Shown here piece by piece: positions 1 to 62,191 of a stretch of 64,000 nt of DNA (position 1 is its first letter; every line of letters starts with the position of its first letter). Under the pieces are notes generated by a model. That model searched no databases and was not told where the DNA came from. It saw nothing but the letters and a program-made list of their open reading frames with translations. Source of the DNA: a virus; the IMG/VR virus record IMGVR_UViG_3300008259_005066, positions 1 to 64,000 of that record. One strand, written 5' to 3'. A program made the translations under genes and the position numbers.

Positions 1-603
1 TTCTGTGACACGGATATCAGTCCTATGATACTCGTCTGCCTTTCCTGATGGATCCACGTGCCAGGCATAGAACTTAGACCATGGATAATCTTGTTTGAGG
101 CTAAGAAAAGCATTTAAATTGGGCACAGAATCATCATACATGATGATCTTGTCGTAGTGTTCTTTGCCCAAGAGATGTTGTAGTATGATCTTTTTCTTTT
201 CTTCTGTGGCGGCTTTGATGTTCAAGTTACCAGCACGATACACATGCACTTTTGACATGTCAATGCCATACTGGCGGAATGTGTCCAGGAAAACTTCTCG
301 GTCATTGAAGTCCGAGCGGGCAGTAAGCATGATCACTTTGTTGCCCGTGGCGATGTCTTGTTTGAGTTGGCGGATCATGCCGGGTATGGGCCGGGCCTGT
401 GTGTAGAATTCGCGGGCATCACGGAAAGCACCAAAGTCAAACTCTTCACCGGGCTGTAAGTGATAGTGCGTGAAATCGTGACTGTTGAGTTGCTTCACGA
501 TCCGGCCATCTCGCACCACATTGACCTTGGTGTCTGTGTTGACCAGGGTATCGTCGATGTCAAAGATGACTAGTTTGGAATTAGCGAATTCTTGTGCTCT
601 CAT
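1..603 (-). CDS. HAD-superfamily phosphatase-like protein (3' part outside window)
   Basis: The first 201 residues are visible and the gene runs off the left edge. HAD motif I (D-I-D-D-T) lies near residue 17, a motif II-like 'M-L-T-A-R-S' near residue 80 and an acidic motif (M-Y-D-D-S) near residue 135, as in HAD phosphatases and the 3'-phosphatase domain of phage polynucleotide kinases. The ATG at 603 overlaps the stop of the upstream gene (ATGA), so translation is probably coupled. The first residues, MRAQEF, repeat the N-terminal tag of the next two genes upstream. The substrate cannot be told from the sequence. Confidence 0.75.
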   Translation of the reverse strand, partial: MRAQEFANSKLVIFDIDDTLVNTDTKVNVVRDGRIVKQLNSHDFTHYHLQPGEEFDFGAFRDAREFYTQARPIPGMIRQLKQDIATGNKVIMLTARSDFNDREVFLDTFRQYGIDMSKVHVYRAGNLNIKAATEEKKKIILQHLLGKEHYDKIIMYDDSVPNLNAFLSLKQDYPWSKFYAWHVDPSGKADEYHRTDIRVTE

Positions 604-998
604 ATCATCATCTCTGGTAATGTTTCCAAGTTGGCTTTAATCTTGGCAAAGTTCATCATATATCGGTTGACAAAGTTGGCATAGCCGGCAGGATCTCGGG
701 CTTCCCAATCTGCCAATCTTTCTTTCATTGCTGTGTATTCTTCATTAAATGCCACAGCATTGTCGCTTTTACTTTTCCAAAGCCGTTTGACTGTTTCTTC
801 TAGTTCTCGGGTGTTGGGGTTGTTGGGATAGTGTTTTTTACATATCACCCACAACATGGCAGCCGAGTTGATAATCTTGGTGATGTTCCGATCGGATTGA
901 GCCTGTGCCGATCCCAATGCCGCAGAGCCAGCCACGGCACCTGCACCACGCAAGAAGTCTCTGCGAGTGATTTCGACTAATAATTCTTGTGCTCTCAT
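600..998 (-). CDS. Small protein with capsid-targeting-like N-terminus followed by a Tat-type signal
   Basis: This 132-residue protein starts MRAQELLVE, resembling the short capsid-targeting peptide of T4 internal proteins and ending in L-V-E, a T4 prohead-protease type site. Directly after it comes T-R-R-D-F-L-R-G, then a short hydrophobic stretch and A-Q-A, the layout of a twin-arginine signal peptide with a signal peptidase site near residue 33. The remaining ~100 residues are helical and charged with no recognised domain. It overlaps both neighbours by ATGA. Dual targeting (head, then Tat export in the host) is inference. A lone Tat signal acquired from a host gene is the alternative. Confidence 0.7.
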   Translation of the reverse strand: MRAQELLVEITRRDFLRGAGAVAGSAALGSAQAQSDRNITKIINSAAMLWVICKKHYPNNPNTRELEETVKRLWKSKSDNAVAFNEEYTAMKERLADWEARDPAGYANFVNRYMMNFAKIKANLETLPEMMI

Positions 999-1579
999 AG
1001 GCTGTAGGGGTCCATTATCACTAGATGTCCATCACTGCGGCGGCGAAGGTTCTCTATCTGGCTGAGATCCAATGGTGCCTGGCCGCCCAAGGCTTGTTCT
1101 AATTTCAGCGTAGTATTTACTAAACCCACGATGTCATCACGATCCAGTTCTTTAGGAGCAGGATTGTTCTTCATGAACTCCTGCACACGATCACGTCCGC
1201 GTGCCACTGCTGACATGAGATTTTCTAGATAGTCCAGCGTGGCTTCTTCGTTGGCCACATAGTCTAGATATTCCATCTCATACACAAAATATGTTTCTCC
1301 ATCTACTTCAAAATCACCCACGTTGTAAATCCTGGGAATATAAGGATCGTTCTGATTGTTGACGAAAAATTTCACGTAGTTTTTTACTATCTGTTCGCGC
1401 TCATCTTCACCTATGCCCAAGACTTTGAGTATGGTGTTTCTGGGACTCAACAAGGCTATCTGATCGCGTCCTTCGCCGGCCAACTGATAGCCGCGATCAA
1501 AAAAATAGTTTTGTATGCGGTCGCTCACTGATAACTCATCGGGAAAGTTTACTTCTGAGATAAATTCCTGAGATCGCAT
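995..1579 (-). CDS. Conserved phage protein with capsid-targeting-like N-terminus
   Basis: 194 residues beginning MRSQEFISE-V, very close in pattern to the T4 internal-protein targeting peptide and ending in I-S-E, a prohead-protease type site. The body has 'T-I-L-K-V-L' near residue 50 and 'Y-F-V-Y-E-M-E-Y-L' near residue 100, loosely like the lysine strand and hinge of a protein-kinase N-lobe, and ends H-L-V-I-M-D-P-Y. No complete kinase catalytic loop is visible, so kinase activity is not claimed. The start overlaps the stop of the giant gene upstream (TAATG) and its stop overlaps the next start (ATGA). Confidence 0.7.
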   Translation of the reverse strand: MRSQEFISEVNFPDELSVSDRIQNYFFDRGYQLAGEGRDQIALLSPRNTILKVLGIGEDEREQIVKNYVKFFVNNQNDPYIPRIYNVGDFEVDGETYFVYEMEYLDYVANEEATLDYLENLMSAVARGRDRVQEFMKNNPAPKELDRDDIVGLVNTTLKLEQALGGQAPLDLSQIENLRRRSDGHLVIMDPYSL

Positions 1580-4500
1580 TATCTCAACTCTGGAACGACT
1601 TCTACAGGATCATCAAATCTAGTGCGTTGGACCCATTGTTGTGCCACACGATTGGCATCGCCTTGACTGTTGCCTATGCCACTGAATGTGTAAACCACTT
1701 CTCCGGTATTGGCATTACGAACTTGCCACTGTCCTGAGAATTCGCCCTGTGTTGATGTGGCAACAGGTTCTCGATTGCGCCGCCAGGCTGGTGGCTGTTG
1801 GGGGTGTGCAGATATCTGTATGACATCTCGACCTTGCATTTGCAACGCATCTAGCACATTCTGTCTGGCTGCTTCGGCACTGGCAGCATCAATGTTCAAA
1901 GAATCACTGGTTACTGTTCCATTCCTGCGCTCATCCCACATCACACGATAGTGTCCGGCGTCTGATACTGCGCCTGCGGGTTGAGGCTCACCTATGCGGG
2001 CCTGTATCTGTTCACGATCTCGCTCATTGTCTGCGGCCACTGCCGGTGTGACCTTGGGTTCTTTGAGGCGTTTGGCCACTTGAGCACGTGGACTCAGTTT
2101 CTTTTCTGGCTCAGGAGTGTCATCGGGCCTGCGATATATCTCCCAATCGTCGGAGAGTCGATCCCCATACTCTGCCTGGACCTTTTGTTTGGCGCTGTCA
2201 AAATCTCTGGCTCTCACAGTGAGTATGATGTCACCGTAGGAATCCTTGACATCATACCAGGGTTGTTTCTTACGGATGTCCAAATTGCGCCATTCGGGTG
2301 TGTTGCCATACTTGTCCTGGGCTTTCATATAGGCAGTGTCATATTCATCAGCATAGAAAGAGTCGATCACTCCATCCGGACCAGACTTGCGCTGATCATA
2401 CACTTCCCACTCTTCTTGACCAGTGGTGGGTATCTCTTTCTGGAGCACAGCATTGGCCCACTGTTTCTTGAGTTCTTCTGGAGTTATGGTGCCAGCGGCA
2501 AATTGAGAAAATAACTTGAGACCGTCATCCTGTGCACCAGGTGAGATCAGTTTATAGAGTTTCTTGGCATACTCTCGACGTTCCAGGCTGGGGCTGCCTG
2601 CGATCTGCATGGCCCGAGCAAAACGCAACATGGTATTGCGGATGTCATCATATTCACCGCGACTCTCCATGCTCAAATAATCACCACCAGGGCTACGGAA
2701 CTCGATGTAGCCGTCCTGGATGTGTGCGGAAGTATACTTGCTGTCTCCCACACCGTTCTGCACATAACGAGCAGCCAGTTCAATGAGATTTTTCTGCACC
2801 AGTTCTAGCGCACCCATGGGATCAAATCGGGCTTCAGTCAAGGTGCCACGGCGGCGTGCCACTCGCATGCTGTTGCGTAGTTTTTCCATGGCCGATGCCG
2901 CATAGGTGTTGGAAGCACGACCAAACTTGTCTAACACATATTCGTCGCCCATGAACAGCACCAATTTGACATAGTCTACGTCACCGCCCACATAGGGTAT
3001 AGAGATGCCCATGTGCAAGCCGGTGGACGAGTTGGTGTAGGCATCGGCTTCTGAGTTACCCCACTCAATGACCTGTTTTAATTTTTCCAGGGTTTCTGGC
3101 AAGGGCAAGGGCGGAGACACGATCTCCAGGCCCATTTCATCATCACGATCATCGGGATCTAGGCTGCCGTCGGGTTCGATGATCCATAGACCGGGCCGGC
3201 GTGTGGTTGAGTGATAGCCTGAACTCACTCTCACTGGCATGTCAATGGCACGCTGTAAACTGTCACCAATATCGCTCCACTCACGGCTGCCAGTGCCAGA
3301 GGAACCGCCGCTCCAGTAGGGCCAGTCAAGGCTTTCTTCGTTGGCGATGTCAGTCATGTAACCATAGCGGTCACGGAGGAAGTCGCGCTCGTCAAACTCG
3401 CCGCCTTCTCGCGTCATGTCCCAATAATATTCGCGAGCCGCATCGTAATATTCGCCTTGGCTTTCAAACTCATTGGTTATTTCTTCTTCGAATGCTTCGT
3501 AGGCCGCATCGGATGCTTGCTTGAATTTTTGGTATAATTCGTTGGATTGTGCATATTCATCTTGATCTGAACTCCGGGTGAATCTTGGTGCGCTGTCGCC
3601 GGCTTTCATTATAGCGGGCACTGCCTCGTCACCAAACATTTCCTCGACCTTGTCTTGGATACGGCTTTCGCGTTCTGAGTCATCGTCCCAGACGTTGGTC
3701 TCCATGTAGTCACGCACTTGATCTTCGGCATTCTCGTCCCAACTCTCGCTGATCTGTTCATCCACCCATTCCGTATAGGCTTCCCACAGGCTTTCTCGTA
3801 GATTCCTGGCGCCTTGGCGACTCAAACCATAGCCATAGTCATCATTGGAGAAGAAGTCTATGACATGGTCGATGTCATCGGGCCGCTCATCGTAGTCGTA
3901 GTCAGGTTCTTGATCGTAGTCTTCATCTTCGTCACGGCGGGTATCACGGAAGATCATTTCTGCTTCAAAGCCAGCACGTATACCTTCGGCTTCAGGTGAT
4001 CGTGCCCAGGCTTCCAAGGCCCCGGGCGACATCTTGACTTCCATGAGATCTTCGTCTTCTTTGACTTCGATATTGACGAATCTTGGATTGCCAGTGCTCG
4101 ATGGTGTTTTTTTCTTTGGTCGGTCTTGTGGTCTTTGTCGTTTCTGGGCCTGCCCTTGATATGGATCTATTTTTTGTCGTGGGTCTGGCACGGCAGGAGT
4201 CACGGGATTGACTGCTTCAAACACTCCAGTCTCTTTGTATTCCTTCAAGGCATTGGCCAAGTTCTTGATCAACAGTGCAGGACGTCCTTGGCTGTCGGTC
4301 TGCAATCCCAACTTGTTGGCTTCCTTGCCTACCTGTCCAGGTCGGATGTCCACTGTGAGTGCTGTTTTGAAACGTGGATCTCGGGCCTGCTTCTTGGTGG
4401 GGATGTATCCTGCGGCATCTTCGGCCACTTTACCTTGTATTTTCTGTTGTAGACGATAGGTCTTGATGAATTCTTGTTCCGAGCGTGTCAAAGGACGACC

Positions 4501-6678
4501 TGTCGTGGCCTTGCCCATGACAAACTTGTAGTAATCTTCGCGATCCTTTTGGCTGCGACTCACAGGCGTCTGTATGGATTCTCTGCGCGGTGCAGGACCT
4601 TCTATGGCCACCATGGCACGGAATGTGTTGCCCATCTGGTCGGCTTCATAATCCACAACTTTCCAACCGCCGGGGCCCAGTGTGATAGGACCATGCTGTT
4701 GTTGTGCGCGGTTGATGGCATTTTCCAGGGCCTGTCGATAGGCTTCTTCTGCTGATGCAGCCGCGGCGTTTGACGCAACACGCTCACCTTGCGGTCTAGG
4801 GCCACCATAGATCAACTTGCCACCCACACGTATTTCTCTGCTGCCACGTGCCATGTCTCGGGCTATGCCCTTGAGTTCTTCTTCAGCACCTGCACGGGTG
4901 AATATGCCCGAGGGTTGATATATCTGCTTGCCTATCTGATAGGCCGTGCGCCCCACATCCTGTGCCTGTGCTGGCTGTCCCAGTGCGGCAGCGGCTGCCA
5001 AGGCACCAGTGGCCAGTGTTTTTCCTAGACCCTCGTCTACATTGTAGGTAGGATCGGTCTTGACTTTTCGCATGCCAGCGGGTTGCCGGGGATCCTTGGG
5101 ATCGATGTCAGTGACATCTAGGCCCGTGGCTTCAAGATCTTTGATAAACTTATGTTCAGTTTCTTCATCGCCAAACGAGATTATGGAACTGGGCGGACCT
5201 GCACCAAAGTCATGCTTGCCCAAGCCTTTCATGTTGGAGATATGCTGTCCCAGTTTATACCAGTCATACACATCGCTCACATCTACCCTCACAGTGCCTG
5301 CGGGCATGGTAGGAGGGAATTCTGGTCCTGGTGGAGTCTGATCACCATAGTGTGCTTCGATGTCATCGTCTTCACCGGTAGCACCAGACTGTGCGGGTGA
5401 AAACTCCGTGAGTTGTTCTTCCACTGTTTCTGCGCCAAAGAATTCTGGATAACGATTTTGGAAATGGCGCATAATTATGCCGGCCTTGGCATTGGCTTCA
5501 TTTTCGTAGGGACTGCCAGTGCGACCCGCTGTGTCAGGCATGTCTCGGCCCAAGCGTTCATGCTGTTTGTAATGTGTGAGTTCATGTGCCACGGTGCGCA
5601 GGATGTCCATGATGTGGCGACCGTGCGTGGCCACCTCGATCATTTTCTTGTCATCTACATAATGGCCCATTGAATGGATGTGCTTGGTAAATTTTTCACC
5701 TTGCAAGATGATGCGAGGCAGTTGATCTAGTTTGAGATAGTGCGCGGCAAAATGCACGAAGCGTCGCACCACTTTGTCTATGGGTATGCTCTTGGCTTGG
5801 ACTTTGATCTCTGTGTCTTCGCGCACACTTTCTCCGCCCCCATCACCACCACCGTCTGCGGCTTCGGCGTCGCCGGTCTGACCATAATAACCATAGCCTG
5901 GATAATAGTATCCACCAAAAGAACCGTAACGGAATTTCTTTTTGGATTTTTTCTTTTTCTTTCGGCGCTCAGCCAGGCTCAGTTTTGAATCTTCTAGGCT
6001 GGCACGATGATCAAACAATCGCTTGACCAAGCCCTGTGTGCGCAGGATCTTGTAGGCCAGATTCTCAGGTCCGAACTCGCCATGTTCATCCAATCCGGCC
6101 TGCCGATATCGTTTTATCACGTCAGTGAGATTGGTGACTGTTTGGAGATCATCGCTGGTCAGTGCAAGCTCAATCAGGTCTCTGAGTTTTTCGTATTTTG
6201 CTTGGGTTGATTTTTCGTCGAGATTGCCTTGGCGTCGCACGGGAATACGAGTCCAGTCGTCACGCACGATGGAATACTCACCAAGGCTGCGAACAGGCTT
6301 GCCTGCGTCTTGCACATAGAGCTCGACGTCATAGCCTCTGATTTTTATATCGTGTTGATCGTTGTATTGATATTTCTTTGCGTTGAACAGCTCTTGATAT
6401 ACTTGGTCGGGATTGAGCTTGCTGAAATCTACTAAGAGATGCAGATCTATGTCGGAATGGGGAGTATAGGTGTATGCGGCATTGGATCCACTCACAGTGA
6501 TATCTTCCACTGCGAGATCACTGATGCCCAGGAATTCGCGGAAATCATCGGCGATTTTGATCAGGGCCTCACGCACTTCGGGACGCATGCGATCGCCGTC
6601 CCAGAGTGCAGGGTTTAATTCAGTGTGAAACTTTACCGCGTCCGACAGGCGGTAACTGTCTAATTCATTGATGTCCAT
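1579..6678 (-). CDS. Giant multidomain protein: nucleotidyltransferase, HExxH metallopeptidase and amidoligase-like segments
   Basis: 1699 residues. Residues 1-190 look like a Pol-beta-type nucleotidyltransferase (G-S-N at 64-66, D-I-D at 76-78). A Lys-rich linker (238-249) and a Gly/Tyr-rich segment follow. Residues ~290-415 carry H-E-L-T-H (365-369) with a downstream Y-E-N-E-A (E392/E394), the zinc-peptidase pattern. At 551-574 there is a signal-peptide-like hydrophobic run ending A-Q-A-Q. Residues ~903-1345 fit the phage amidoligase (COOH-NH2 ligase) family: G-F-E-A-E-M, G-L-E-I-V-S-P, T-G-L-H-M-G and E-F-R-S-P-G-G. The last ~300 residues hold about four similar beta/alpha modules (W-x-V...A-x-x-A). 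L-x-E motifs at 237, 425 and 880 fall between segments and could be prohead-protease cuts. A late promoter lies directly upstream. Likely a virion-interior protein; activities are inferred from motifs only. Confidence 0.8.
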   Translation of the reverse strand: MDINELDSYRLSDAVKFHTELNPALWDGDRMRPEVREALIKIADDFREFLGISDLAVEDITVSGSNAAYTYTPHSDIDLHLLVDFSKLNPDQVYQELFNAKKYQYNDQHDIKIRGYDVELYVQDAGKPVRSLGEYSIVRDDWTRIPVRRQGNLDEKSTQAKYEKLRDLIELALTSDDLQTVTNLTDVIKRYRQAGLDEHGEFGPENLAYKILRTQGLVKRLFDHRASLEDSKLSLAERRKKKKKSKKKFRYGSFGGYYYPGYGYYGQTGDAEAADGGGDGGGESVREDTEIKVQAKSIPIDKVVRRFVHFAAHYLKLDQLPRIILQGEKFTKHIHSMGHYVDDKKMIEVATHGRHIMDILRTVAHELTHYKQHERLGRDMPDTAGRTGSPYENEANAKAGIIMRHFQNRYPEFFGAETVEEQLTEFSPAQSGATGEDDDIEAHYGDQTPPGPEFPPTMPAGTVRVDVSDVYDWYKLGQHISNMKGLGKHDFGAGPPSSIISFGDEETEHKFIKDLEATGLDVTDIDPKDPRQPAGMRKVKTDPTYNVDEGLGKTLATGALAAAAALGQPAQAQDVGRTAYQIGKQIYQPSGIFTRAGAEEELKGIARDMARGSREIRVGGKLIYGGPRPQGERVASNAAAASAEEAYRQALENAINRAQQQHGPITLGPGGWKVVDYEADQMGNTFRAMVAIEGPAPRRESIQTPVSRSQKDREDYYKFVMGKATTGRPLTRSEQEFIKTYRLQQKIQGKVAEDAAGYIPTKKQARDPRFKTALTVDIRPGQVGKEANKLGLQTDSQGRPALLIKNLANALKEYKETGVFEAVNPVTPAVPDPRQKIDPYQGQAQKRQRPQDRPKKKTPSSTGNPRFVNIEVKEDEDLMEVKMSPGALEAWARSPEAEGIRAGFEAEMIFRDTRRDEDEDYDQEPDYDYDERPDDIDHVIDFFSNDDYGYGLSRQGARNLRESLWEAYTEWVDEQISESWDENAEDQVRDYMETNVWDDDSERESRIQDKVEEMFGDEAVPAIMKAGDSAPRFTRSSDQDEYAQSNELYQKFKQASDAAYEAFEEEITNEFESQGEYYDAAREYYWDMTREGGEFDERDFLRDRYGYMTDIANEESLDWPYWSGGSSGTGSREWSDIGDSLQRAIDMPVRVSSGYHSTTRRPGLWIIEPDGSLDPDDRDDEMGLEIVSPPLPLPETLEKLKQVIEWGNSEADAYTNSSTGLHMGISIPYVGGDVDYVKLVLFMGDEYVLDKFGRASNTYAASAMEKLRNSMRVARRRGTLTEARFDPMGALELVQKNLIELAARYVQNGVGDSKYTSAHIQDGYIEFRSPGGDYLSMESRGEYDDIRNTMLRFARAMQIAGSPSLERREYAKKLYKLISPGAQDDGLKLFSQFAAGTITPEELKKQWANAVLQKEIPTTGQEEWEVYDQRKSGPDGVIDSFYADEYDTAYMKAQDKYGNTPEWRNLDIRKKQPWYDVKDSYGDIILTVRARDFDSAKQKVQAEYGDRLSDDWEIYRRPDDTPEPEKKLSPRAQVAKRLKEPKVTPAVAADNERDREQIQARIGEPQPAGAVSDAGHYRVMWDERRNGTVTSDSLNIDAASAEAARQNVLDALQMQGRDVIQISAHPQQPPAWRRNREPVATSTQGEFSGQWQVRNANTGEVVYTFSGIGNSQGDANRVAQQWVQRTRFDDPVEVVPELR

Positions 6679-6686
6679 GGCACATC

Positions 6687-6697
6687 TATTTATTTAG
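6687..6697 (-). promoter_or_regulatory. T4-type late promoter for the giant gene
   Basis: The minus strand reads CTAAATAAATAG, two overlapping TAAATA motifs, less than 10 bases before the ATG at 6678. It overlaps the stop codon of the glycosyltransferase gene. Confidence 0.6.
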
Positions 6698-7634
6698 ATT
6701 GTGCTTTGGCCTTTTTTGCTTGAGGTTTGGTTTTGGCCACCACTTTGGCCTGCACAGGCACAGGTTGTGTGGGCACAGCGTCGGCGGCTGGCACAGCAAG
6801 TTTTTCATGCTGGCTGTAGTCGCTGGTCTGTGTGGTAGATACCGGTGTATTCACGGGTTGTGCCACTGGTAGCTGTCCGTTGCGTTCCATTTCTTCCTTG
6901 AGACTCTGATACAAGGCCGGTTGCACAGCATAGTCAAACACATAGGTTCCTGTGTGCTTGAGCAACACACGCTTGTCTACCCATACTTCGCCACCGAAAT
7001 CGCGCCAGTTTTCACAGAACGTCCAGTCTTCAGAATAGTAGCGATTTTCACGCACTGCTGTGTCAAAGTAGGTCTTCATGTGTGGATCAAGTTCTTTGGG
7101 CAGGCCGATATCATTGGCGAAAGTTTTCACAGCAGGATGGCGAGCGAGCTTTTCAAACACATGTCGCTTGATCAACATAAAGCCTGTGCCTGTTTTTGAT
7201 ACTTCCTGTAAGGGTCCTTCTTCTTTGGCACCTTCGAAGCCATTGACCACCCACTTAACGGGCATGGTCTTCATTGGGTATAAGCCACCAATGACGTCTT
7301 TGTCTGCGTTTAGTAGCACCAGCAAATGCCACGGTTCCCAACCAATGTCAGCATCCACGAACATCAAGTGTGTGCTGCCAGGAGTGTTCAAGAACTTGGC
7401 AACTAGAGTATTTCTAGCACGTGAAATCAATGATTCATTGGTCATGGTTTCTATAGTCCAGTCCAAGCCCAACTGTCGGCATGTGTTTGACCATTTGATA
7501 TAACTCATGAATGTAGACTCAGTGAGCTGGCCACCATAGCAGGGCATACAGAGATGCACACGCTGTTGGCGCAAGAAATCTACATTGACTTGGATCTGGG
7601 TCTGGCCCGGTTGTGGTTGCTGTTGTTCGCTCAT
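6690..7634 (-). CDS. GT-A fold glycosyltransferase-like protein
   Basis: 314 residues. The N-terminal half has the nucleotide-sugar transferase layout: L-C-M-P-C-Y near residue 28, S-L-I-S-R-A-R-N at 68-75, and the metal-binding D-A-D at 94-96 in 'M-F-V-D-A-D-I-G-W'. The segment 'T-G-T-G-F-M-L-I' near 150 is the usual acceptor-site strand. The C-terminal ~80 residues are Pro/Ala/Gln/Lys-rich and probably disordered. Such enzymes in T4-like phages modify virion proteins, DNA or host glycans; the acceptor is unknown. GAGG lies just before the ATG. Confidence 0.75.
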   Translation of the reverse strand: MSEQQQPQPGQTQIQVNVDFLRQQRVHLCMPCYGGQLTESTFMSYIKWSNTCRQLGLDWTIETMTNESLISRARNTLVAKFLNTPGSTHLMFVDADIGWEPWHLLVLLNADKDVIGGLYPMKTMPVKWVVNGFEGAKEEGPLQEVSKTGTGFMLIKRHVFEKLARHPAVKTFANDIGLPKELDPHMKTYFDTAVRENRYYSEDWTFCENWRDFGGEVWVDKRVLLKHTGTYVFDYAVQPALYQSLKEEMERNGQLPVAQPVNTPVSTTQTSDYSQHEKLAVPAADAVPTQPVPVQAKVVAKTKPQAKKAKAQSK

Positions 7635-7659
7635 GGAGTCCTCTAAAATAATGTGCGTA

Positions 7660-7666
7660 TATTTAG
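7660..7666 (-). promoter_or_regulatory. T4-type late promoter (CTAAATA)
   Basis: CTAAATAT on the minus strand about 26 bases upstream of the glycosyltransferase ATG at 7634, with a GAGG ribosome-binding site between. Confidence 0.65.
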
Positions 7667-7685
7667 TCTAGCGATTGTAGCACGA

Positions 7686-9206
7686 TTATTTCATTGGGTC
7701 AATGATGGTGTTCCAATTTGAACGGGTATGGATCAAGCGCATTCCGCTGTTGTCCATCCTCATGCGCCAGCCCAGCATTTGCAGATCTCTGCGCAGTGGA
7801 GCCAACATAGGACCAGGATCCTGTATCTTTTCGTCTTTGGCTATGTCTACTATTTTGAAGGCCAATTGTTTGGCTTGCTCATAGCCCTCGGGCGGAGTGG
7901 CCGAGGGCGGAAACGGAACCACATCACCTTCTTCGATATAGTCGGGAGATTCTTCCACAGGCATCCTCATCCGGATTTTTTCTGCGAGATTGAGTTGGCT
8001 CATGTCAACTTCTCGGCCACGTGCTATGGGTCTGCGACCTTGTTTCTGCATGAAACGCTCGTATTCTGCCAAGGCGTCAACCAAGCTCTTGACCACGCCA
8101 CCTTTGTAAAGTGCATATTGCAGTCCAGAGTAGTTTTTGCCTTTGACCATGTTGACCATGTCGGCAAACTTACGGGCGAGATTGTTGACCATGCTGGCCT
8201 CGTCCCAGGTGCCCATGCCACCGTCAGGTATGATCTGATGGCCAGCGTCTGGATCATTTACCAGCACTGCTTCAGTGGTTGGTGCAGGGTGGGTCTTGAT
8301 CCATTGTGCTATCTGAGATTTCACGTTTGGTGGAATCAGACTAGAATCAAGAGTGAATACATTGTCCGAATCCATTTTGCGACTAACATCAGTCACACGA
8401 TCATTGAGTTTAAGAGTCACAGCCTCTTGCGGTGGCACCCAGCGAATTTTGGAATTAGTGACCAGAGGGTTGCCTGGCTGACCAAATCTATCAGTCACAC
8501 GATATCCTATGTCAATAAACTGATCATTGCCCATTTTGATATAGTCTGTGCGTTTATTGAAAAGATCTAGTTCATTGAGTTGTTCCTCATTGACGTCTTT
8601 CCCGACGCCCATCACTGTGTCTAGTATTTCCACGATCTTGGCTATCTTTGCTTGATTGTCGGCTGCCAAGGGATACAGCACACCAGCCAGAGCGGCTTTT
8701 TGTTTGGGATCCATGCCGGGCCATTTGGCACGGATTTCAGTGGCTGACGTCATGCCCGGACCAAACTGCACAGTGGGCAGATAAGTCATGTAAGCATGAT
8801 CTTTCATGGGTTCGAGACCGTTGCGACGGTAGGGCTGTAAATAAGGGCTCAGTCCTTTACGAGGACCACGTGTGATTATCTGTCCAGGCTGGCCTGGCTG
8901 AGGATTCTGATCGCGATCTTTGTCTGAACGAACAAAAATCAACTGTGTTTCGTTGGGATCAAAATGTTGGGTTATTTCTTCTGCGCTGAAAGGTGATTTT
9001 ACCTGGATGAATCTGTTGCTGGGGATGCCGGCTTGCTGTGCCAGGAACTTCTTGGTCTTGAATGGAAATGGACGACCAGTGGTATCGTCTGTGGCCGCCA
9101 CATACACTTCGGCCGAAGGAAACGCTTCACGTGCGGCATCATACAAGGCTTTGTGCCCGGCATGATAAGGGTGGAATCCACCTGGTATGATCACTAATTT
9201 TTTCAT
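7686..9206 (-). CDS. HxGH nucleotidyltransferase fused to a C-terminal phage domain
   Basis: 506 residues. Residues 1-160 form a cytidylyl/adenylyltransferase-like domain: G-G-F-H-P-Y-H-A-G-H (HxGH at 15-18) and T-S-A-T-E-I-R (153-159), the ISSTxxR-type motif seen in NMN, pantetheine-phosphate and FAD adenylyltransferases. The remaining ~340 residues are not recognised and contain L-x-E sites at 212 and 409 that resemble prohead-protease cuts. Given nadE elsewhere in the window, NMN adenylyltransferase activity is possible but the substrate is not decidable by eye. The start is fixed by the domain. Confidence 0.75.
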   Translation of the reverse strand: MKKLVIIPGGFHPYHAGHKALYDAAREAFPSAEVYVAATDDTTGRPFPFKTKKFLAQQAGIPSNRFIQVKSPFSAEEITQHFDPNETQLIFVRSDKDRDQNPQPGQPGQIITRGPRKGLSPYLQPYRRNGLEPMKDHAYMTYLPTVQFGPGMTSATEIRAKWPGMDPKQKAALAGVLYPLAADNQAKIAKIVEILDTVMGVGKDVNEEQLNELDLFNKRTDYIKMGNDQFIDIGYRVTDRFGQPGNPLVTNSKIRWVPPQEAVTLKLNDRVTDVSRKMDSDNVFTLDSSLIPPNVKSQIAQWIKTHPAPTTEAVLVNDPDAGHQIIPDGGMGTWDEASMVNNLARKFADMVNMVKGKNYSGLQYALYKGGVVKSLVDALAEYERFMQKQGRRPIARGREVDMSQLNLAEKIRMRMPVEESPDYIEEGDVVPFPPSATPPEGYEQAKQLAFKIVDIAKDEKIQDPGPMLAPLRRDLQMLGWRMRMDNSGMRLIHTRSNWNTIIDPMK

Positions 9207-9211
9207 ACCAG

Positions 9212-9219
9212 TATTTATA
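9212..9219 (-). promoter_or_regulatory. Exact T4 late promoter TATAAATA
   Basis: The minus strand reads TATAAATACTGGTATG, with the motif ending five bases before the ATG at 9206. With T4 spacing the transcript would start at or beside the start codon, so a leaderless or very short-leader mRNA is implied. Confidence 0.7.
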
Positions 9220-10199: not shown

Positions 10200-10895
10200 T
10201 TATTTATCGCGTATGAGTTTGACTGTTTTCCTTGTGATACGAGGTAACAACAGGCTCAGCATAGTAACTATGCCCATGCCATCATGATCAATGAAAAAGT
10301 TTTCACTGACATAATAGTGTTTTTGATCCTGTTCAATAAACTGCGCCAGACCCGGTCCCAATCGTATGCTTTCTTGCTTGATCAAGAAGTCCACTAGATT
10401 GTGGCGTTGAGGTTCATCCAGACGCTGTGCCCGGAAATAGGACCGGAACTCGTGCTGGCTGTTCTGGATCCTCAGCGTGTCTCTGGGGCGATCCAACACA
10501 CTGCGTTTCACGCTCACTGCATGCACATAAGGCAACTGTTCTATGGTGCGGATCAGGCCCAGATCGCTGGTGTAAACATATCCCCAATCACCTGACACTG
10601 TGATTTTGTAATTCTGTTGTGCCTGCAGGAAATCCAACATGGCATGGCAATTGGCTCGCTGTTCTTCGGTGATCTGACCCCGGCGGCTGGCCCAAGATCC
10701 ACCAAAGTTCGGACTGCGTTGCCGCCAGTCATTGCGATGGTTGATCATGCGATCGATGCGGTCATGCTCCATCTCTCGCACACAACTCATCTCGTCCATG
10801 CGGAAAGCCAAACAATACTCATAGAGATCGAAATAAGATCTATCTCTACGATGTATTTTAATGGTCAAAGGGCTAGTCGACTTGTATGATACCAT
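10200..10895 (-). CDS. Conserved phage protein of unknown function
   Basis: 231 residues from the ATG at 10895, which overlaps the 3' end of the Clp ATPase gene by 23 bases. This start was preferred over longer options because those run deep into the upstream gene. The sequence is Arg-rich in the first half ('R-Q-R-S-P-N-F-G-G-S-W') and ends in 'L-S-L-L-L-P-R-I-T-R-K', an amphipathic tail. No catalytic motif was recognised. Confidence 0.6.
   Translation of the reverse strand: MVSYKSTSPLTIKIHRRDRSYFDLYEYCLAFRMDEMSCVREMEHDRIDRMINHRNDWRQRSPNFGGSWASRRGQITEEQRANCHAMLDFLQAQQNYKITVSGDWGYVYTSDLGLIRTIEQLPYVHAVSVKRSVLDRPRDTLRIQNSQHEFRSYFRAQRLDEPQRHNLVDFLIKQESIRLGPGLAQFIEQDQKHYYVSENFFIDHDGMGIVTMLSLLLPRITRKTVKLIRDK
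10201..10206 (-). promoter_or_regulatory. Late promoter-like TAAATA
   Basis: GATAAATA on the minus strand about 8 bases upstream of the ATG at 10193. It overlaps the stop codon of the preceding gene. Confidence 0.45.
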
Positions 10896-12126
10896 CGGCG
10901 TCCACGGTTCCTGTGCTGGGTATTGGGTTGAGATCGCTGAAAGCCACTGTGCCATCGCGATAGTCTGCTGTGATTTCGCAGTCCTGCAAGCGATCAAACA
11001 GGATCTTGCGGCTCAATGGCACGCGGATCAGTTCGTCGATTTTGCGACCCAACGGCCTCGCACCCATCTTGGGATCATAGCCAACGTCTGCTAGATGCTC
11101 CACCATGGCTTCTGTCAGCGTGAGTCTGATGTTGCGATCCACTAGACTGCGTTTGAGTTCGTCTACGAACTTGATGACCACTTTCTTGATACTCAGCGGA
11201 TCCAGTTTGTTGAATTTGCAGATGAGATCCAAGCGATTGCGCAGTTCCGGGCGGAAGTAATCTTTCACAGCGCGATCTTCTTCGCCGGTCTTCTCGAGGC
11301 TCTGGCCAAACCCGATTGTGTTATTTTCATTGTCTCGAGCACCTAGATTTGACGTCATGATGATGATGCAGTTCTTGACGTCCACGGTCTTGCCATTGCT
11401 TCCAGTGATGGTGCCTTCGTCCATCATCTGCAGGAAGATGTTGGCTATGTCTGGGTGGGCTTTTTCCACTTCATCGAACAACAGCACTGAGAATGGATGT
11501 TTAGAAAGATCATTGATCAGTTTGCCCCCGGCCAGTTGGCTGTCATCATAGCCCACATAGCCCGGAGGTGCTCCCAGCAGTGAACTCACGGTGTGTCGAT
11601 CTTGATATTCGCTCATGTCGTATCTCAACAGTTTCATGTCGAGATTGTCGGCCAACAGCCGTGCCAGTTCTGTTTTACCTGTGCCAGTGGGGCCCAGGAA
11701 AAGGAAACTGCCCACTGGCCTGCGACCTGATGCGATACCAGCGAAGTTCACATAGATACGTTCCAACACTTGATCCACCACATGATCCTGACCGTAAAGT
11801 TTTTGCTTGATGTTGCTGTCTAGTTCGGTCACTCGGGTGTTTACATCATTCTTCACACGTTCGGGTGGAATATTGGCCACACGGCCCACTTGATCCTGGA
11901 TCAAATCTGCGGTGATCACCACATCATCAAGATCTTTGATGCGTTCTCGGGCACAGGCCGCATCTACTAGATCTATGCTCTTGTCAGGATTTTTGCGATC
12001 AGTGATATAACGACTGGCCAGTTCCACTGCTTTGGTGATGGCATCTGCGTTGATTTTGACCCGATGGAATTCTTCCATGCGAGGTTGCAATCCTGTCAGT
12101 ATGCGTATAATGCGCGATCTTTTTCA
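10873..12126 (-). pseudogene. C-terminal part of a split Clp/Hsp100 ATPase (second AAA+ domain)
   Basis: This frame continues the Clp ATPase from just after the first AAA+ core. It opens with 'I-R-I-L-T-G-L-Q-P-R-M', matching the family segment that follows the arginine-finger region, then holds the complete D2 module: Walker A G-P-T-G-T-G-K-T, Walker B 'L-L-F-D-E-V-E-K-A-H', sensor 1 'I-I-M-T-S-N-L-G' and the C-terminal 'G-A-R-P-L-G-R-K-I-D'. The first usable start inside it is TTG at 12090 or ATG at 12078. By comparison with ClpA/ClpB about 50-55 bases are missing between this frame and the upstream one, so they cannot be rejoined by a simple one-base shift. Confidence 0.75.
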
Positions 12127-13082
12127 AACGACTCATAGTATTCTTCCCAAGTGGTTGATGCTATGACTTTGAGCAAGCCCTTGGTTATGGCCGGCTTGAT
12201 CATGTTGGCAAAGTCTAGACTGGATCCAGACCCTGCACCAGCACCGCGCATGGTGTGCGCTTCATCTATGAACAGTATGACATTTTTCTTATGTTCCAAG
12301 GCCATGAGCACGGCCTTGAGTTTTTCTTCGAACTCGCCGCGATATTTGCTTCCTGCCAGCAATGAGCCAATCTCCAGGCTCCAGACTTCATGATCCTTTA
12401 GGAATTCTGGCACTGTGCCGTTGTATATCAGCGTGGCCAGGCCCTCGGCGATGGCAGTCTTGCCCACTCCGGGATCTCCTACCATGAGCACGTTTGACTT
12501 AAACTTTTTGGCCAATACCGTGATGATTTCATTGAGTTCTGTGGATCGCCCGATCAAGGGCTCCAGTTTATCCTCTCTCGCCCGCTGGCTGAAATTGATA
12601 CAGTGTTCGGTGAGGATTTCGTTGGCCTGATCATCACTGATCACTCCGTCCTTGGTAGTGTAGTTGGCTTGCCAAAATTCGATGAACTCTTTCTTTTCCA
12701 GCCCGTGCTTGAGGAAATAATAGTGTGCATGGCTGTTTGACTCGTTCATGATGGCCAACCATAGATCTATAGTGGTCACTTGCCTGCGGCCTGTGAACAA
12801 CACCTGGGTGAGCGCACGATTGAACACACGTTCCAATCCATTGGTTTTCTTGGGATCTTCGTCGCGATTCATACGCAGGCTGACCATGCTGTCGATATAA
12901 CTTTCAAGGTCTTGATCGAGATGATCCACAGGCGTGCCAAACTTGACGATGACCTGCGTGAAAGGCTGATGCCTTACCAAGGCCAAGGCCAGGTGTTCCA
13001 GCGTGACATATTCGTGTCGCTTTACGCGGGCCAGTTTTTGCGCCTGGGCTAATATTTGTTCAATTTCAGGATTCTGTTGCAT
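12096..13082 (-). pseudogene. N-terminal part of a split Clp/Hsp100 ATPase (Clp-N repeat and first AAA+ domain)
   Basis: 328 residues from the ATG at 13082, chosen because AAGGA lies 8 bases upstream. It has an N-terminal Clp repeat ('Y-V-T-L-E-H-L-A-L-A'), Walker A G-D-P-G-V-G-K-T-A, Walker B 'I-L-F-I-D-E-A-H-T' and sensor 1 'K-V-I-A-S-T-T'. The frame then stops three codons after 'F-E-K-D-R-A-L', exactly where the family has the arginine finger (R-R-F). A two-subunit product is conceivable, but loss of the finger argues for decay or an assembly error. It overlaps the deformylase 3' end by 17 bases. Confidence 0.75.
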
Positions 13083-13512
13083 TCTGTTCCTTGGCTCGAT
13101 CATGCATGGTTATTCCTTGTAGATGATCCAACTCGTGTTGGAAACATCTGGCTTCAAGTCCCGAAAGATCTGCTTCGACCCAATCACCGAAATGATTTTG
13201 GTATCTCGCCCTGATCGCATCGGGTCTTTTAAGTATACATGAGTCTCCGGGAAAACTCAAGCATCCTTCCTCAAATTCGGCAAACACATCACTGCTAGAC
13301 ACTATGACAGGATTAAAGCACGCCCGATCGTGTCCGTCAACGCTCATCACAAACAATCGTTTGGAAAGGCCAATCTGTGGAGCTGCCAATCCTATGCCAT
13401 TTTGCAAGCGCATCAACCCAAACATCTGGGTGGCCAGATCATGATTGCGGACAGGATACTGGAAATCTACAGGCTTGGCTTGATTGTGTAAAACCCTGCG
13501 TGTCAACTTCAT
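13066..13512 (-). CDS. def: Peptide deformylase
   Basis: 148 residues with all three deformylase motifs: G-I-G-L-A-A-P-Q-I-G, E-G-C-L-S-F-P (metal cysteine) and Q-H-E-L-D-H-L (metal histidines and catalytic glutamate). It removes the formyl group from nascent proteins, and short versions like this are well known in marine phages. ATG at 13512 was chosen; longer readings run back into the DnaJ gene. It lies in a chaperone/processing cluster with DnaJ and the Clp ATPase. A TAAATA motif precedes it. Confidence 0.93.
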   Translation of the reverse strand: MKLTRRVLHNQAKPVDFQYPVRNHDLATQMFGLMRLQNGIGLAAPQIGLSKRLFVMSVDGHDRACFNPVIVSSSDVFAEFEEGCLSFPGDSCILKRPDAIRARYQNHFGDWVEADLSGLEARCFQHELDHLQGITMHDRAKEQNATES

Positions 13513-13516
13513 AAAA

Positions 13517-14218
13517 TTATTTATTGGTGTGTTTTTCCAGTATAGCGATGATTTCTTCGGGTATGTTACCGGGCATTTCGGCACGCAATCTCACTATCAA
13601 ATCGCCGGTGGTGTGTCCTTCTCGCACGACTCCGCGTCCTCGCGCTCGTAACATAGTTCCGGGACGTGTGCGTGGTGGTATGGCCAAACTCAACACACGA
13701 CCTTGTAGATCTGTGATCTCTAGATTATGACCCAGGATCAATTGCCAGAAATCCACACCTCGTTCGGTATAAAGATCTTGTCCATCTCGCTGCCAGCCGG
13801 GGTGCCCATGCACACGATAGTTGACAATGAGATCTTGACCACCCGGGCCCAAGCCCGGATAACGCACATTTTCATTGTCATTGATCCCCGGTGGTATGGT
13901 TATTTCCAAGGCCTGTGTGCCTGTTTGGGTGTGCATGCTCACAGTGCGAGGTCCACCAACCACAGCAGTCTCCAATGAAATCCAGATACTGATGCGCTGA
14001 TTGCGCGGTGCTTGTTGGCCACGTGGATTCATCCTTGCACCGAACATCTCAAATATGGTATCAAAGTTGAAAGGTCCACCACCGCCGCCGTGGAAAGGAT
14101 TGCCGTTGACGTTGATACGCACCTGAGGATTGTCATAGTGCTGGCGCTTGGTGGCATCGCCCAAGGTATCATAGGCTTCATTGATTTCTTTGAATTTTTT
14201 CTCATCACCACCGCCGTG
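13517..14218 (-). pseudogene. dnaJ: DnaJ-like co-chaperone lacking the start of its J domain
   Basis: The frame opens directly after a stop codon with 'H-G-G-G-D-E-K-K-F-K-E-I-N-E-A-Y', the second half of a J domain just after the HPD motif. A Gly-rich linker and two DnaJ C-terminal beta domains follow ('I-T-I-P-P-G-I', 'D-L-I-V-N-Y', 'T-T-G-D-L-I-V-R'), with no zinc-finger domain, as in CbpA-type proteins. About 35-40 N-terminal residues including HPD are absent. No ATG lies in frame; TTG at 14164 is the first candidate. Without HPD it could not stimulate Hsp70. Confidence 0.75.
13518..13523 (-). promoter_or_regulatory. Late promoter-like AATAAATA
   Basis: AATAAATA on the minus strand, about 6 bases before the deformylase ATG at 13512 and overlapping the DnaJ stop codon. 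Confidence 0.45.
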
Positions 14219-33196: not shown

Positions 33197-33520
33197 CTAG
33201 TAAGGTGAGAAACTTGATCCGCAACCGCAGGTGGTCTGTGCGTTGGGGTTTTCTATGCTGAAACTACTGCCCATGATGTCGTCTTTGTAGTCTATTGTAG
33301 CACCTTGCAGGTAGCCCCATGACATGGAATCTACCAAGAGTTTGACACCATTGTAATCAAAATCAAAGTCGTCTTCGTTTTGTGCTTCATCAAATGTGAA
33401 ACCATACTGCATGCCCGAGCAACCACCGCCCTGCACGAACACACGCAGTTTGAGATTGGCATTGTTTTCCTCGGCGAATATGTCTTGTATCTTGCTCTGT
33501 GCTGATTCCGTTAACTGCAT
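33197..33520 (-). CDS. A-type iron-sulfur cluster carrier (IscA/ErpA-like)
   Basis: 107 residues, full family length. The three cluster-binding cysteines are present: 'G-G-C-S-G-M-Q-Y' and the C-terminal 'T-C-G-C-G-S-S-F'. A-type carriers deliver Fe-S clusters to apo-proteins in the cytoplasm. Known in some marine phages. The window encodes three radical SAM proteins that need such clusters, which gives a plausible client. It overlaps no neighbour but is tightly packed against the SOD gene. Confidence 0.92.
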
Positions 33521-37532: not shown

Positions 37533-38928
37533 CCTGCTGAAAAATAGGCTCTAACCAAGGAAAAACTCGTTGCCAATTGGTTGCTCTACGCCGATCGAGT
37601 TCGGTTAAAAATTCTCGGAGCTTTATGATTTCCTCTGTGTCAAATCCTTTGCTGGCGCTTTCTTGAGCAATGCCTTGCAGATATTTTTTGATATTGATCT
37701 GCTCCGCATCATTCTCGGGCATGATCTGGATAGCTCTATTAAAATCATCCACGAAAACATCGCCTAAAATATCAACATGCATGTGCAACGGTGATTCTGC
37801 ACTGTTCATGTAATGAGATACATGGCGTATCTTTCTCCATTGATTGATGCGCTCAATAAGATCAGGCAGAGTCTTGATAGTGAGAGGAGTCAGTGTGCTA
37901 CCTACTATTAATCTAATCCAAGATTGATCAAGCAGGTATCGGAAATTTTTTTCCCAAATGTCTAGTTTGAGAGGAAAACGTGCATATTCTTGTTCAGGTC
38001 CCCAGCAATCGAGACTGGCAGTTACCACAAAAGTTTTGAGATGTTGTTTGTCAATGAGATTTTTAATTTTGCTTACCACCGCAGACACTCGAGCCGGAGT
38101 AGCATTGAGATTGGTAAAAATCTGGAACTCTAGTTCCGGCATTGGGTTGTGATCAAAAAAATCCAGACAATCATCGAGATCTTTTTGGAACAAAGGCTCG
38201 CCGCCAAGGAAATTAAAGTTGGTAAGGCTATGTCCGTGTTGCGATATCCACTCAAACATCTTGGTTTTATTTTTTGCGATATCAGGACTTTTCTTAAATG
38301 TATTCGAGATGATCAAACCATTTTTTTCAAACTTACCATGTTTTTTGTTTTCAGCATCCCATAAACTGCTGAAATGCGGACCGCAATACACACATTTCAA
38401 ATTACAGACATTGTCAAAGTAAACTTCTAATATACGAGGAGTGACTTGGATAGCAACAAGATCATCATCCAGTTCTGGCGGAGCAAACATTCCAGGCATA
38501 TCAAGATTGGTTATCCTGTCACTTTGTCCTCCGGCCGTTTCTATATCTCGACAATAACCACAACCTTTTTCGGGCCAAAATCCCTGGAGCATGCGAGATC
38601 TATCGTCCAACTTGCTAGGAGTGTTGTGAAAATCAAATACATCGATATCAAACTTGTGATGATTGGTGCGATGACAACTGGCAGTATTTTCTGTCGTAAG
38701 ATAAACTGTGCTCCAGTTCCATTTGAGTTGACAAGCTGTGGCAGTTTTTATGGGAAATGTTTTGTGTTGATATCGAGGCTGATTTCTGTAACTACCTATC
38801 ACATAACCATGAACTTGTTGACACTCATCCTGTATCCACTGTGGTAGAGATAAAAAATCTTGTTCATGGTCGCAGTCCGGCCATGATGAATCTTTTATGC
38901 TTAGATAAAATTCCTGCCAAGGCGTCAT
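37522..38928 (-). CDS. Radical SAM protein (copy 2)
   Basis: 468 residues. C-x3-C-x2-C at 175-182 (C-N-L-K-C-V-Y-C), then 'F-N-F-L-G-G-E-P-L-F' for SAM binding. N-terminal cysteines, including 'C-G-Y-C' at 123-126, could bind an extra cluster. The N-terminal ~150 residues are longer than in copy 1. Start overlaps the nadE stop (ATGA), so it is co-translated with NAD synthetase. A/T-rich relative to neighbours. Substrate unknown; probably peptide or protein modification. Confidence 0.85.
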   Translation of the reverse strand: MTPWQEFYLSIKDSSWPDCDHEQDFLSLPQWIQDECQQVHGYVIGSYRNQPRYQHKTFPIKTATACQLKWNWSTVYLTTENTASCHRTNHHKFDIDVFDFHNTPSKLDDRSRMLQGFWPEKGCGYCRDIETAGGQSDRITNLDMPGMFAPPELDDDLVAIQVTPRILEVYFDNVCNLKCVYCGPHFSSLWDAENKKHGKFEKNGLIISNTFKKSPDIAKNKTKMFEWISQHGHSLTNFNFLGGEPLFQKDLDDCLDFFDHNPMPELEFQIFTNLNATPARVSAVVSKIKNLIDKQHLKTFVVTASLDCWGPEQEYARFPLKLDIWEKNFRYLLDQSWIRLIVGSTLTPLTIKTLPDLIERINQWRKIRHVSHYMNSAESPLHMHVDILGDVFVDDFNRAIQIMPENDAEQINIKKYLQGIAQESASKGFDTEEIIKLREFLTELDRRRATNWQRVFPWLEPIFQQVDQ

Positions 38929-39692
38929 TCTTGATCTTTGAATTTACACACCGGAATAGCCTGCATCTTGTGTAGATTGCGAGCACGGATCTCTCGATAT
39001 CGTTTTAGATTTTTCTTGAGCTCTTTGTTATCGCACTGTATTTCGCCCTGGTCCATGCGCATGGCCACTTCAAGGTCGGCGTAGGTCATGCCTAACTGTT
39101 GTTCGTCAGTGCGACCATCTGCCCATAAACCATCAGTGGGAGCGGCATCAATGATATCTTGCAACACGCCCAGTTCACGACCCATGGCCCACACTTCAGT
39201 TTTCATGCAGTCTCCAATGGGACTGATATCCACACCACCGTCGCCATACTTGGTAAAGAACCCCACTCCAAAGTCTTCAACCTTGTTGCCTGTGCCCACA
39301 ACGATGCCGGAGTTGGCTTGCGCTAATTGATACAAGGTCATCATGCGTAATCTAGCACGACTGTTGGCATAGGCCAGTTCATCGCTGAACACACGGGTAG
39401 CATGTTCAAATTGTTCAAAGGCGGATGTGAGATCGATAACAAAGTGATCCACCAGTTCAAACGTGTCTTTCAGCCACTGTCCATGCCGCATGCTGAGATC
39501 ATGTGTGTGTTCGCTTTGCCGGATGGGCATGCTCACAGCAATGACATACAGTCCTGCACGAGCACACAGCGTGGATACCACGGCCGAATCTATGCCGCCC
39601 GATACACCCACCACCAAGGTATTGATTTTGTGTCTGGTGGCATAACTTTTAATCCACTTTGTAATGTAGTTGATACGTTGTTTTGGTGTCAT
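38925..39692 (-). CDS. nadE: NAD synthetase, ammonia-dependent type
   Basis: 255 residues. P-loop 'G-V-S-G-G-I-D-S-A-V' near residue 30, 'V-V-G-T-G-N-K-V-E-D' and 'Y-G-D-G-G-V-D-I-S-P-I-G-D' are the NadE signatures; no glutaminase domain, so it uses ammonia. It makes NAD from deamido-NAD. Phage NAD synthesis can offset depletion by host defences or support replication. It overlaps both neighbours by ATGA. Confidence 0.93.
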   Translation of the reverse strand: MTPKQRINYITKWIKSYATRHKINTLVVGVSGGIDSAVVSTLCARAGLYVIAVSMPIRQSEHTHDLSMRHGQWLKDTFELVDHFVIDLTSAFEQFEHATRVFSDELAYANSRARLRMMTLYQLAQANSGIVVGTGNKVEDFGVGFFTKYGDGGVDISPIGDCMKTEVWAMGRELGVLQDIIDAAPTDGLWADGRTDEQQLGMTYADLEVAMRMDQGEIQCDNKELKKNLKRYREIRARNLHKMQAIPVCKFKDQE

Positions 39693-61727: not shown

Positions 61728-62191
61728 TCGTAGATCCAACCCAGATCCTCGATCCGGTGTATCCAAGTAAACACTGGGATGTCGAAATCCAGTGTCCAGA
61801 TTCCATTCCATCCCAGGTAAGTGTGAGCAGATAGATATTCTGGTAGATCCTGTCCAGACTTCCGTTGTTCAGTGGCCCAGGGTTCTGGGTATCGAGGACG
61901 ATAACGTCCTTGCCATAGTAATTTGTCAGTGCTGATATCGTTTAATCTCACACCCTTTATTACCACGGCTTTGTCTTTGTTCCCCACTGTGTCTGAATCT
62001 TGTTTGTTGAGCAATTCAACTGAAACTTTGGCATCACCTTTGCCGGATTCCCATGTATGGGAAAAATGGGTGGCTTTTTCGAGAGGGCCGGCCCAGCGCC
62101 ATTCTGGGCCTATCTTCACGATTATCTCAGGCAGTTCCTCATGCCACACAGAATCGATTTCGATATCGATCTTAGTTCTGTAGGTAGCCAT
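61724..62191 (-). CDS. Beta-rich protein coupled to radical SAM copy 3
   Basis: 155 residues from the ATG at 62191, which overlaps the radical SAM stop by 20 bases. Beta-sandwich look: 'K-I-D-I-E-I-D-S-V-W', 'V-V-I-K-G-V-R-L-N-D', and the end 'W-T-L-D-F-D-I-P-V-F-T-W-I-H' with 'L-G-W-I'. I recall a similar C-terminal motif in other phages. It may bind a carbohydrate or be the target of the radical SAM enzyme. Confidence 0.65.
   Translation of the reverse strand: MATYRTKIDIEIDSVWHEELPEIIVKIGPEWRWAGPLEKATHFSHTWESGKGDAKVSVELLNKQDSDTVGNKDKAVVIKGVRLNDISTDKLLWQGRYRPRYPEPWATEQRKSGQDLPEYLSAHTYLGWNGIWTLDFDIPVFTWIHRIEDLGWIYD

Follow-up and report, generated by a model that had tools for sequence, protein, structure and literature searches.

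The gene cluster that opens IMG/VR virus record IMGVR_UViG_3300008259_005066 very probably encodes effectors that are packaged in the phage head: judging from the sequence, a short N-terminal tag would target proteins to the head, a gp21-type prohead protease would cut them, and the resulting modules would be ejected with the DNA. The window analyzed here comprises the first 64 kb (64,000 nucleotides) of this 209,518-base record; a near-identical record, G001 (315,778 bases), contains the same cluster with identical proteins. An earlier, sequence-only reading had singled out three consecutive genes whose products start with MRSQEFISE, MRAQELLVE, and MRAQEF, and these were indeed recovered on the minus strand at 995-1579, 600-998, and 1-603, with overlapping starts and stops (Table 1). 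The first two tags end in I/L-x-E, as had been claimed; the third gene, encoding a HAD-like protein, lacks the cleavage motif.

The tag is shared by relatives of this phage. In 13 related records, the pattern ATG-[RK/S]-x-x-E-F-[hydrophobic]-x-E yielded 46 matches, versus 0 for the reversed pattern, and among open frames in relatives selected for starting with M[KR][AS]xEF, with residues 7 to 9 unseen at selection, 37 of 43 have hydrophobic-x-E at precisely those positions. When IMG/VR was scanned with the codons of the tag fixed, the matches listed comprised more than 100 stretches, nearly all of them opening frames close behind an upstream stop. The cargo, on the other hand, is variable: the 235 tagged proteins among the matches listed fall into at least 40 groups that share no detectable similarity beyond the tag, and the 12 loci related to the kinase-like gene consist of runs of tagged genes with unrelated contents. 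Since relatives have the tag on 4 to 8 neighboring genes each, with unrelated cargo, the absence of conservation that had been named as evidence against such a cluster is not what we found. Matches to PolyVal domains were obtained in tagged relatives (ART-PolyVal, 4e-6, and Kinase-PolyVal, 3.5e-4, in one relative each). Tagged relatives (L169, 2916-5680; L144, 5073-5492) include a lysozyme/LysM chain, the ART-PolyVal protein (4e-6), and an isochorismatase-like protein (recognized by eye), and an untagged protein with a Dps-like ferritin fold (also by eye) sits midcluster in many relatives (L009, 14379-14819, and equivalents). No cultured relatives of the kinase-like protein or of the protein with a twin-arginine translocation (Tat) signal were found among 50,697 phage records, nor were relatives of the kinase found in the bacterial genomes searched.

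A short N-terminal peptide with F-hydrophobic-x-E, common to otherwise unrelated proteins, is the arrangement known from the internal proteins (IPs) of T4. Both IPII and IPIII start with MKTYQEFIAE (tag taken from NC_000866); residues 4 and 7 are the main determinants of targeting and residues 8 and 10 those of processing, L/I-x-E being the motif behind which gp21 cleaves (PMC9026906). When the two peptides are aligned, T4 residues 7, 8, and 10 correspond to the F, I, and E of the present tag. In two natural tags, MRAQEFVQD and MRAQEFVRD (G008, 131544-132377; G006, 2-919), the E of the predicted cut is replaced by D; a T4 tag altered in this way still supports targeting but is no longer processed (PMC9026906), and by analogy the D-bearing proteins may be packaged uncut.

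Corresponding head genes lie farther along the record: a gp23-type major capsid gene (record positions 188165-189361; PF07068, E 5.6e-99) and a gp21-type (S77) prohead protease gene (190498-191121; PF03420, E 2.5e-27), with PHROG matches phrog_207 and phrog_138 covering protease and capsid. A scaffold-like (gp22-like) gene nearby was assigned by gene order, its sole match being phrog_10922 (unknown function). By these matches, the head of this phage is of the T4 type. PF03420 was present in all 10 checked records of at least 147 kb, whereas six record fragments of less than 129 kb lacked it, as expected of partial genomes. The conserved N-terminal region of the capsid protein reads YL[KR]E↓NAS[AS]GSTVSGNIA (arrows mark predicted cuts), and gp21 processing of the T4 capsid propeptide is established (PMC5694885). 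This propeptide site, YLKE↓NASAGSTVSGNIA, resembles that of a small tagged protein, FIKE↓TASAGATTSGNIA, a likeness equaled in none of 2,000 shuffles. In L168 (7403-7597) and related loci, tagged proteins of about 60 residues start with a copy of the mature major capsid N terminus (ASAGxTxSGNIA).

That the motif also divides long proteins is indicated by a junction test, in which cargo standing behind a tag in one phage was searched for within longer proteins of others. Hydrophobic-x-E was located exactly in front of the module at 53 of 79 distinct junctions, where a background of 1.7% predicts about 1.4; the 79 include homologous junctions, which are not fully independent, and come from fragmentary collections. 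Counted by module family, 19 of 31 show the motif at the majority of their junctions. In a tag-independent test, based on proteins sharing a module but not the part preceding it, the start of the shared block peaked sharply at hydrophobic-x-E. In an alignment of 11 kinase homologues, E9 is invariant, be it behind a tag or internal, while residues 1 to 8 are unrelated save for a hydrophobic residue at position 7.

The giant protein of the window is a case in point. It is predicted to contain a nucleotidyltransferase, a basic Gly-Tyr stretch with a zincin (recognized by eye as HELTH; no Pfam match), a signal-peptide module, and an amidoligase with further modules. Such a combination of at least two unrelated effector domains in one chain, together with the shuffled architectures of its relatives, is characteristic of polyvalent proteins. 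Seven of its 10 module boundaries coincide with hydrophobic-x-E (p about 0.0006); different modules follow DPTYNV[DNG]E (E549) in relatives, and module 2 occurs as stand-alone tagged proteins (MRASEFIVE↓RKKKRKK in L142, MRAYEFISE↓TKKRKRK in L088, and MRARHFLCE↓DVMDK in L081). Counting L-x-E motifs, in contrast, is uninformative, as their number in the giant and HxGH proteins is at chance level (33 hydrophobic-x-E motifs in the giant protein versus 30 expected from shuffles); without overall enrichment, it is the position of the motif at swap points, not its number, that constitutes the evidence. Of the sites listed in the sequence-only reading, those at 237, 425, and 880 of the giant protein accordingly hold up as module boundaries seen in relatives, despite the chance-level count, as does 212 (with 207) in the HxGH protein, whereas 409 has little boundary support. 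At the 207/212 position of the HxGH protein, relatives have other modules behind [IL]xE. Finally, the HAD protein, 201 amino acids of which lie in the window before it runs past the record end, is a 614-residue polyprotein in G001 that has one site at 201 and another at 557; the first of these, VTE, marks a module junction, VTE201↓VSADRL being matched by a stand-alone tagged protein, MRAQEFVSE↓ISDEKL (L012).

We propose that the tag, M[RK]AxEF[ILV]xE, binds the prohead core, so that the protein would be enclosed in the assembling head. The gp21-type protease would then cut after hydrophobic-x-E, removing the tag and splitting the long chains (the giant protein, the HAD protein, and probably the HxGH protein) into modules. 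Kept with the DNA and ejected with it, these modules would act on the host before phage gene expression. The enzymes freed in this way would be a kinase, a nucleotidyltransferase, a zincin, an amidoligase, and a HAD protein and, in relatives, also acetyltransferases, ADP-ribosyltransferases (ARTs), and peptidoglycan hydrolases. With a cleavage site immediately ahead of each module, phages would be free to exchange modules. The earlier suggestion of a head-interior polyprotein set delivered with DNA thus gains support from tag conservation, the protease gene, the module junctions, and the virion proteome discussed below; for this phage itself, we infer packaging, cleavage, and injection, as well as the export considered next.

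Two segments of the window resemble export signals placed directly behind a tag or hydrophobic-x-E site (900-971 and 4963-5031). The Pfam Tat signal of the 600-998 protein, which scores above the cutoff, begins at the last residue of the tag; it comprises RRxFL, a hydrophobic core, and an AxA end and would be N-terminal only with the tag removed. Searching IMG/VR for the tag followed by RRxFL, without demanding E9, gave four stretches, all of which have E9: two near-identical ones with a GH19 hydrolase, one with a different GH19 protein, and one with other cargo. Sec-like segments (E↓GWK...AxA) also occur within polyproteins, and one of these segments, in L088, precedes LysM and GH19 domains. 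Of 19 signal-like segments in tagged and polyprotein chains, 15 follow a hydrophobic-x-E at a distance of no more than 13 residues, compared with 21% of random positions; behind all hydrophobic-x-E motifs of all phage proteins, hydrophobic segments are not enriched (0.9% versus 1.1%). Tentatively, the head protease might unmask Tat or Sec signals that are hidden by the tag or the polyprotein: there would be no export in the producing cell, maturation cleavage would create a new N terminus that exposes the signal, and, once injected into the next host, the effector would be exported to that cell's periplasm and act on the wall there. If true, this would amount to a timed delivery from phage head to periplasm, a route via signal-peptide modules of which we know of no earlier description. 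It is also possible, though less likely than not, that the hydrophobic stretches insert into the membrane at ejection, as T7 core proteins do, with the hydrolases breaching the wall from the side of the tail. Other phages are known to have wall hydrolases in their virions, as well as ejection proteins that insert into membranes, and some of the segments lack a twin arginine, as this explanation would allow; however, the segments have signal-peptidase-like AxA ends, and several show a canonical RRxFL directly after the cut site.

Support for packaging of tagged proteins comes from the cultured cyanophage S-CREM2, whose published virion proteome lists open reading frame 156 (ORF156), the ORF154 cytidylyltransferase, the ORF14 kinase, the ORF6 S-adenosylmethionine hydrolase, and ORFs 13, 136, and 137 (PMC10665884, Table 3). 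When the S-CREM2 gene starts were scanned for a tag of the T4 form, exactly four genes were found (ORFs 6, 13, 14, and 154), their tags including MKDFDSFLEE, VKRFDAFLTE, and MKNFSSFLTE (the last on ORF154), and all four products are among the 52 proteins, of about 219, detected by mass spectrometry (chance, about 0.003). ORF156, likewise detected in virions, is a homologue of module 1 of the giant protein (35% identity), and ORF137 has a DWQK module behind MNE. The terms for targeting and cleavage that we searched for are not present in the S-CREM2 paper (PMC10665884). ORF12 (L218, 7704-10313), another virion-detected protein, bears a Cas9 annotation; its sequence includes, around residue 25, the T4-like tag RFASFMAE, which suggests either that a nuclease is packaged in the head or that the start codon was misassigned.

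Several observations weigh against head packaging and processing. The S-CREM2 authors considered that nonstructural virion proteins might be contaminants (PMC10665884), an explanation disfavored by the tag that these proteins share. Such tags are absent from PA5oct and Atu_ph07, the cultured jumbo phages whose proteases are most similar, so that having the protease does not by itself entail having the tag; PA5oct was for that reason ruled out as a proteomics test case. The motif is missing at 26 of the 79 junctions, in several families, some of these being alignment-register shifts. Lastly, in the window itself, the HAD protein keeps MRAQEF without a site behind it (MRAQEFANS), and the HxGH protein has no N-terminal tag.

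Other explanations for the same data fare worse. Polyvalent proteins could, as has been proposed for DdrB of phage P1, process themselves by means of a zincin peptidase of their own, with no involvement of the head protease. The HELTH motif of the giant protein fits this idea, and Iyer et al. (2017), in the passages searched, propose release through embedded peptidase domains (PMC5512222), but hydrophobic-x-E junctions are found as well in polyproteins without a recognized zincin (the one in L088, the HAD protein, and kinase fusions), and the same motif ends stand-alone tags, which match the gp21-processed tag of T4; we consider self-processing improbable. Hardly more probable, in our view, is that the tag serves scaffold binding only, that hydrophobic-x-E within proteins forms flexible linkers, tolerated where recombination takes place, and that the polyproteins stay uncut. 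Cleavage is, admittedly, deduced, the motif count of the giant protein is at chance, and tags such as MRAQEFVQD end in the D that, in T4, prevents processing while leaving targeting intact; against this stand the exact placement of the motif at 53 of 79 junctions, a residue preference identical to that of gp21, and signal peptides that would function only once cut. The notion that the shared N terminus is a DNA or RNA element (for ribosome binding, translational coupling, or recombination) can practically be dismissed, since, even though the genes are consecutive and overlap by no more than 4 bases, as expected under coupled translation, codons vary freely (AGA/CGA/CGT, GAA/GAG, and TTT/TTC) while the amino acids are fixed, and hydrophobic-x-E persists inside proteins, away from start sites.

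Taken as head-packaged effectors, the products of the cluster can be compared with known systems, and the cluster is, as far as its sequence tells, a large polyprotein variant of the T4 internal-protein strategy merged with polyvalent effectors. With T4 IPI to IPIII and Alt it shares a short N-terminal peptide (MKTYQEFIAE versus M[RK]AxEF[ILV]xE), the L/I-x-E cleavage motif, homologues of gp21 and gp23, and unrelated, variable cargo; it differs in having tens of cargo families rather than a handful, clusters of 4 to 8 consecutive tagged genes, modules joined as multisite polyproteins, and export signals behind sites. Polyvalent proteins are likewise very large and multidomain, with zincin, kinase, ART, and other effector domains, and are thought to be packaged and injected; the passages searched in that source ascribe their release to embedded peptidases and mention neither a targeting peptide nor a prohead-protease site (PMC5512222), whereas the modules described here are bounded by prohead-protease-type sites. 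In SPN3US and phiKZ, inner-head proteins are also cut by a gp21-related protease (gp245/gp175) after x-x-E, but there the motif is A/S-x-E, and several propeptides are more than 100 residues long (PMC5694885). S-CREM2 resembles the present phage in the kinase, cytidylyltransferase, and nucleotidyltransferase homologues of its virions (PMC10665884) but has fewer tagged genes and a 10-residue tag of T4-like form. In the open-licence literature, no earlier description of prohead-protease sites in polyvalent proteins was found, although an earlier account may exist; the only paper found with both terms was that of Iyer et al. (PMC5512222), where "prohead protease" occurs only in a reference, and open-licence papers on polyproteins and signal peptides held nothing closer.

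The features of the cluster are collected in Table 1; cargo functions are predictions from domain matches. The product of 995-1579 is a putative kinase, a reading supported, short of proof, by fold and PHROG match: Foldseek returned a protein kinase/APH fold (E 7e-5; TM score, about 0.4), and the best phrog_15752 match among tagged relatives has an E value of 8e-11.

Table 1. Features of the cluster (window coordinates)
Feature	Position	Strand	Basis or remark
HAD-phosphatase-like gene, 5' part; start MRAQEFANSKLVIFDID	1-603	-	PF03767, E 1.4e-6; phrog_415 polynucleotide kinase, 9e-13
Tagged protein, Tat-type export signal plus small helical cargo, function unassigned	600-998	-	PF10518 TAT_signal, residues 9-29, E 1.1e-6
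Putative capsid-targeting tag MRAQELLVE (L-V-E, residues 7-9), then ITRRDF	972-998	-	Tag family
Tat-like signal ITRRDFLRGAGAVAGSAALGSAQA	900-971	-	N-terminal only once cut after LVE; same layout in L089, L138/L214, L215
Tagged protein-kinase-like domain	995-1579	-	phrog_15752, E 1e-4; 12 related loci
Putative capsid-targeting tag MRSQEFISE, then VNF	1553-1579	-	Exact pattern match
Giant polyprotein, 1699 amino acids, short N terminus MDINE↓	1579-6678	-	phrog_36119, 3e-42; PF12224, 8e-7; PF01909, weak
Giant module 1: nucleotidyltransferase, residues 1-237, ends LSLAE	5968-6678	-	35% identity to S-CREM2 ORF156
Giant module 2: basic KKKKKSKKK/Gly-Tyr stretch plus zincin, residues 238-425	5404-5967	-	Stand-alone tagged forms in relatives
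Sec-like signal GLGKTLATGALAAAAALGQPAQA in giant protein	4963-5031	-	Directly behind TYNVDE549
Giant amidoligase module behind DLME880	2779-4038	-	PF12224; [LI]xE↓[VI][KRN]M[SN] in 8 relatives
HxGH nucleotidylyltransferase (nicotinamide mononucleotide adenylyltransferase [NMNAT]/cytidylyltransferase-like), swappable modules after VNE207/QLNE212	7686-9206	-	PF01467, weak

A T4-type late promoter was considered for the cluster, with TATAAATA immediately ahead of the HxGH gene (minus strand, 9212-9219), and rejected, as 2 occurrences in the window versus 0.9 expected are not significant. Elsewhere in the window, an NAD synthase gene (38925-39692; PF02540, 6e-49) accompanies the NMNAT/cytidylyltransferase-like gene of the effector cluster, and the two sequence matches suggest NAD replenishment. 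A ClpA/ClpB-like ATPase (10873-13103) is split into two open frames, by a frameshift or an assembly error, and forms a single 760-residue frame in G001 (150413-152695). The window further encodes a peptide deformylase (13066-13584; 1e-40), an Fe-S cluster biosynthesis protein (33197-33520; PF01521, 8e-20), a radical-SAM/SPASM protein (62172-63494), and a ClpP protease (63487-63984; 3e-71); a second IscA-like gene together with an IscU/NifU-like gene was recognized by eye at record positions 105515-106220.

These results provide a sequence rule for head-packaged, injected proteins, namely, the tag or, in genomes that encode an S77 protease, a module border at hydrophobic-x-E, by which dozens of unassigned genes in uncultured large phages would become candidate early effectors or antidefense proteins. 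The rule predicts exact cleavage sites, which are checkable in existing virion mass spectrometry data, and the natural tags constitute a catalogue for cargo loading into T4-like heads. For T4-type phages, it offers an answer to the question of how multidomain polyvalent proteins may be loaded and cut.

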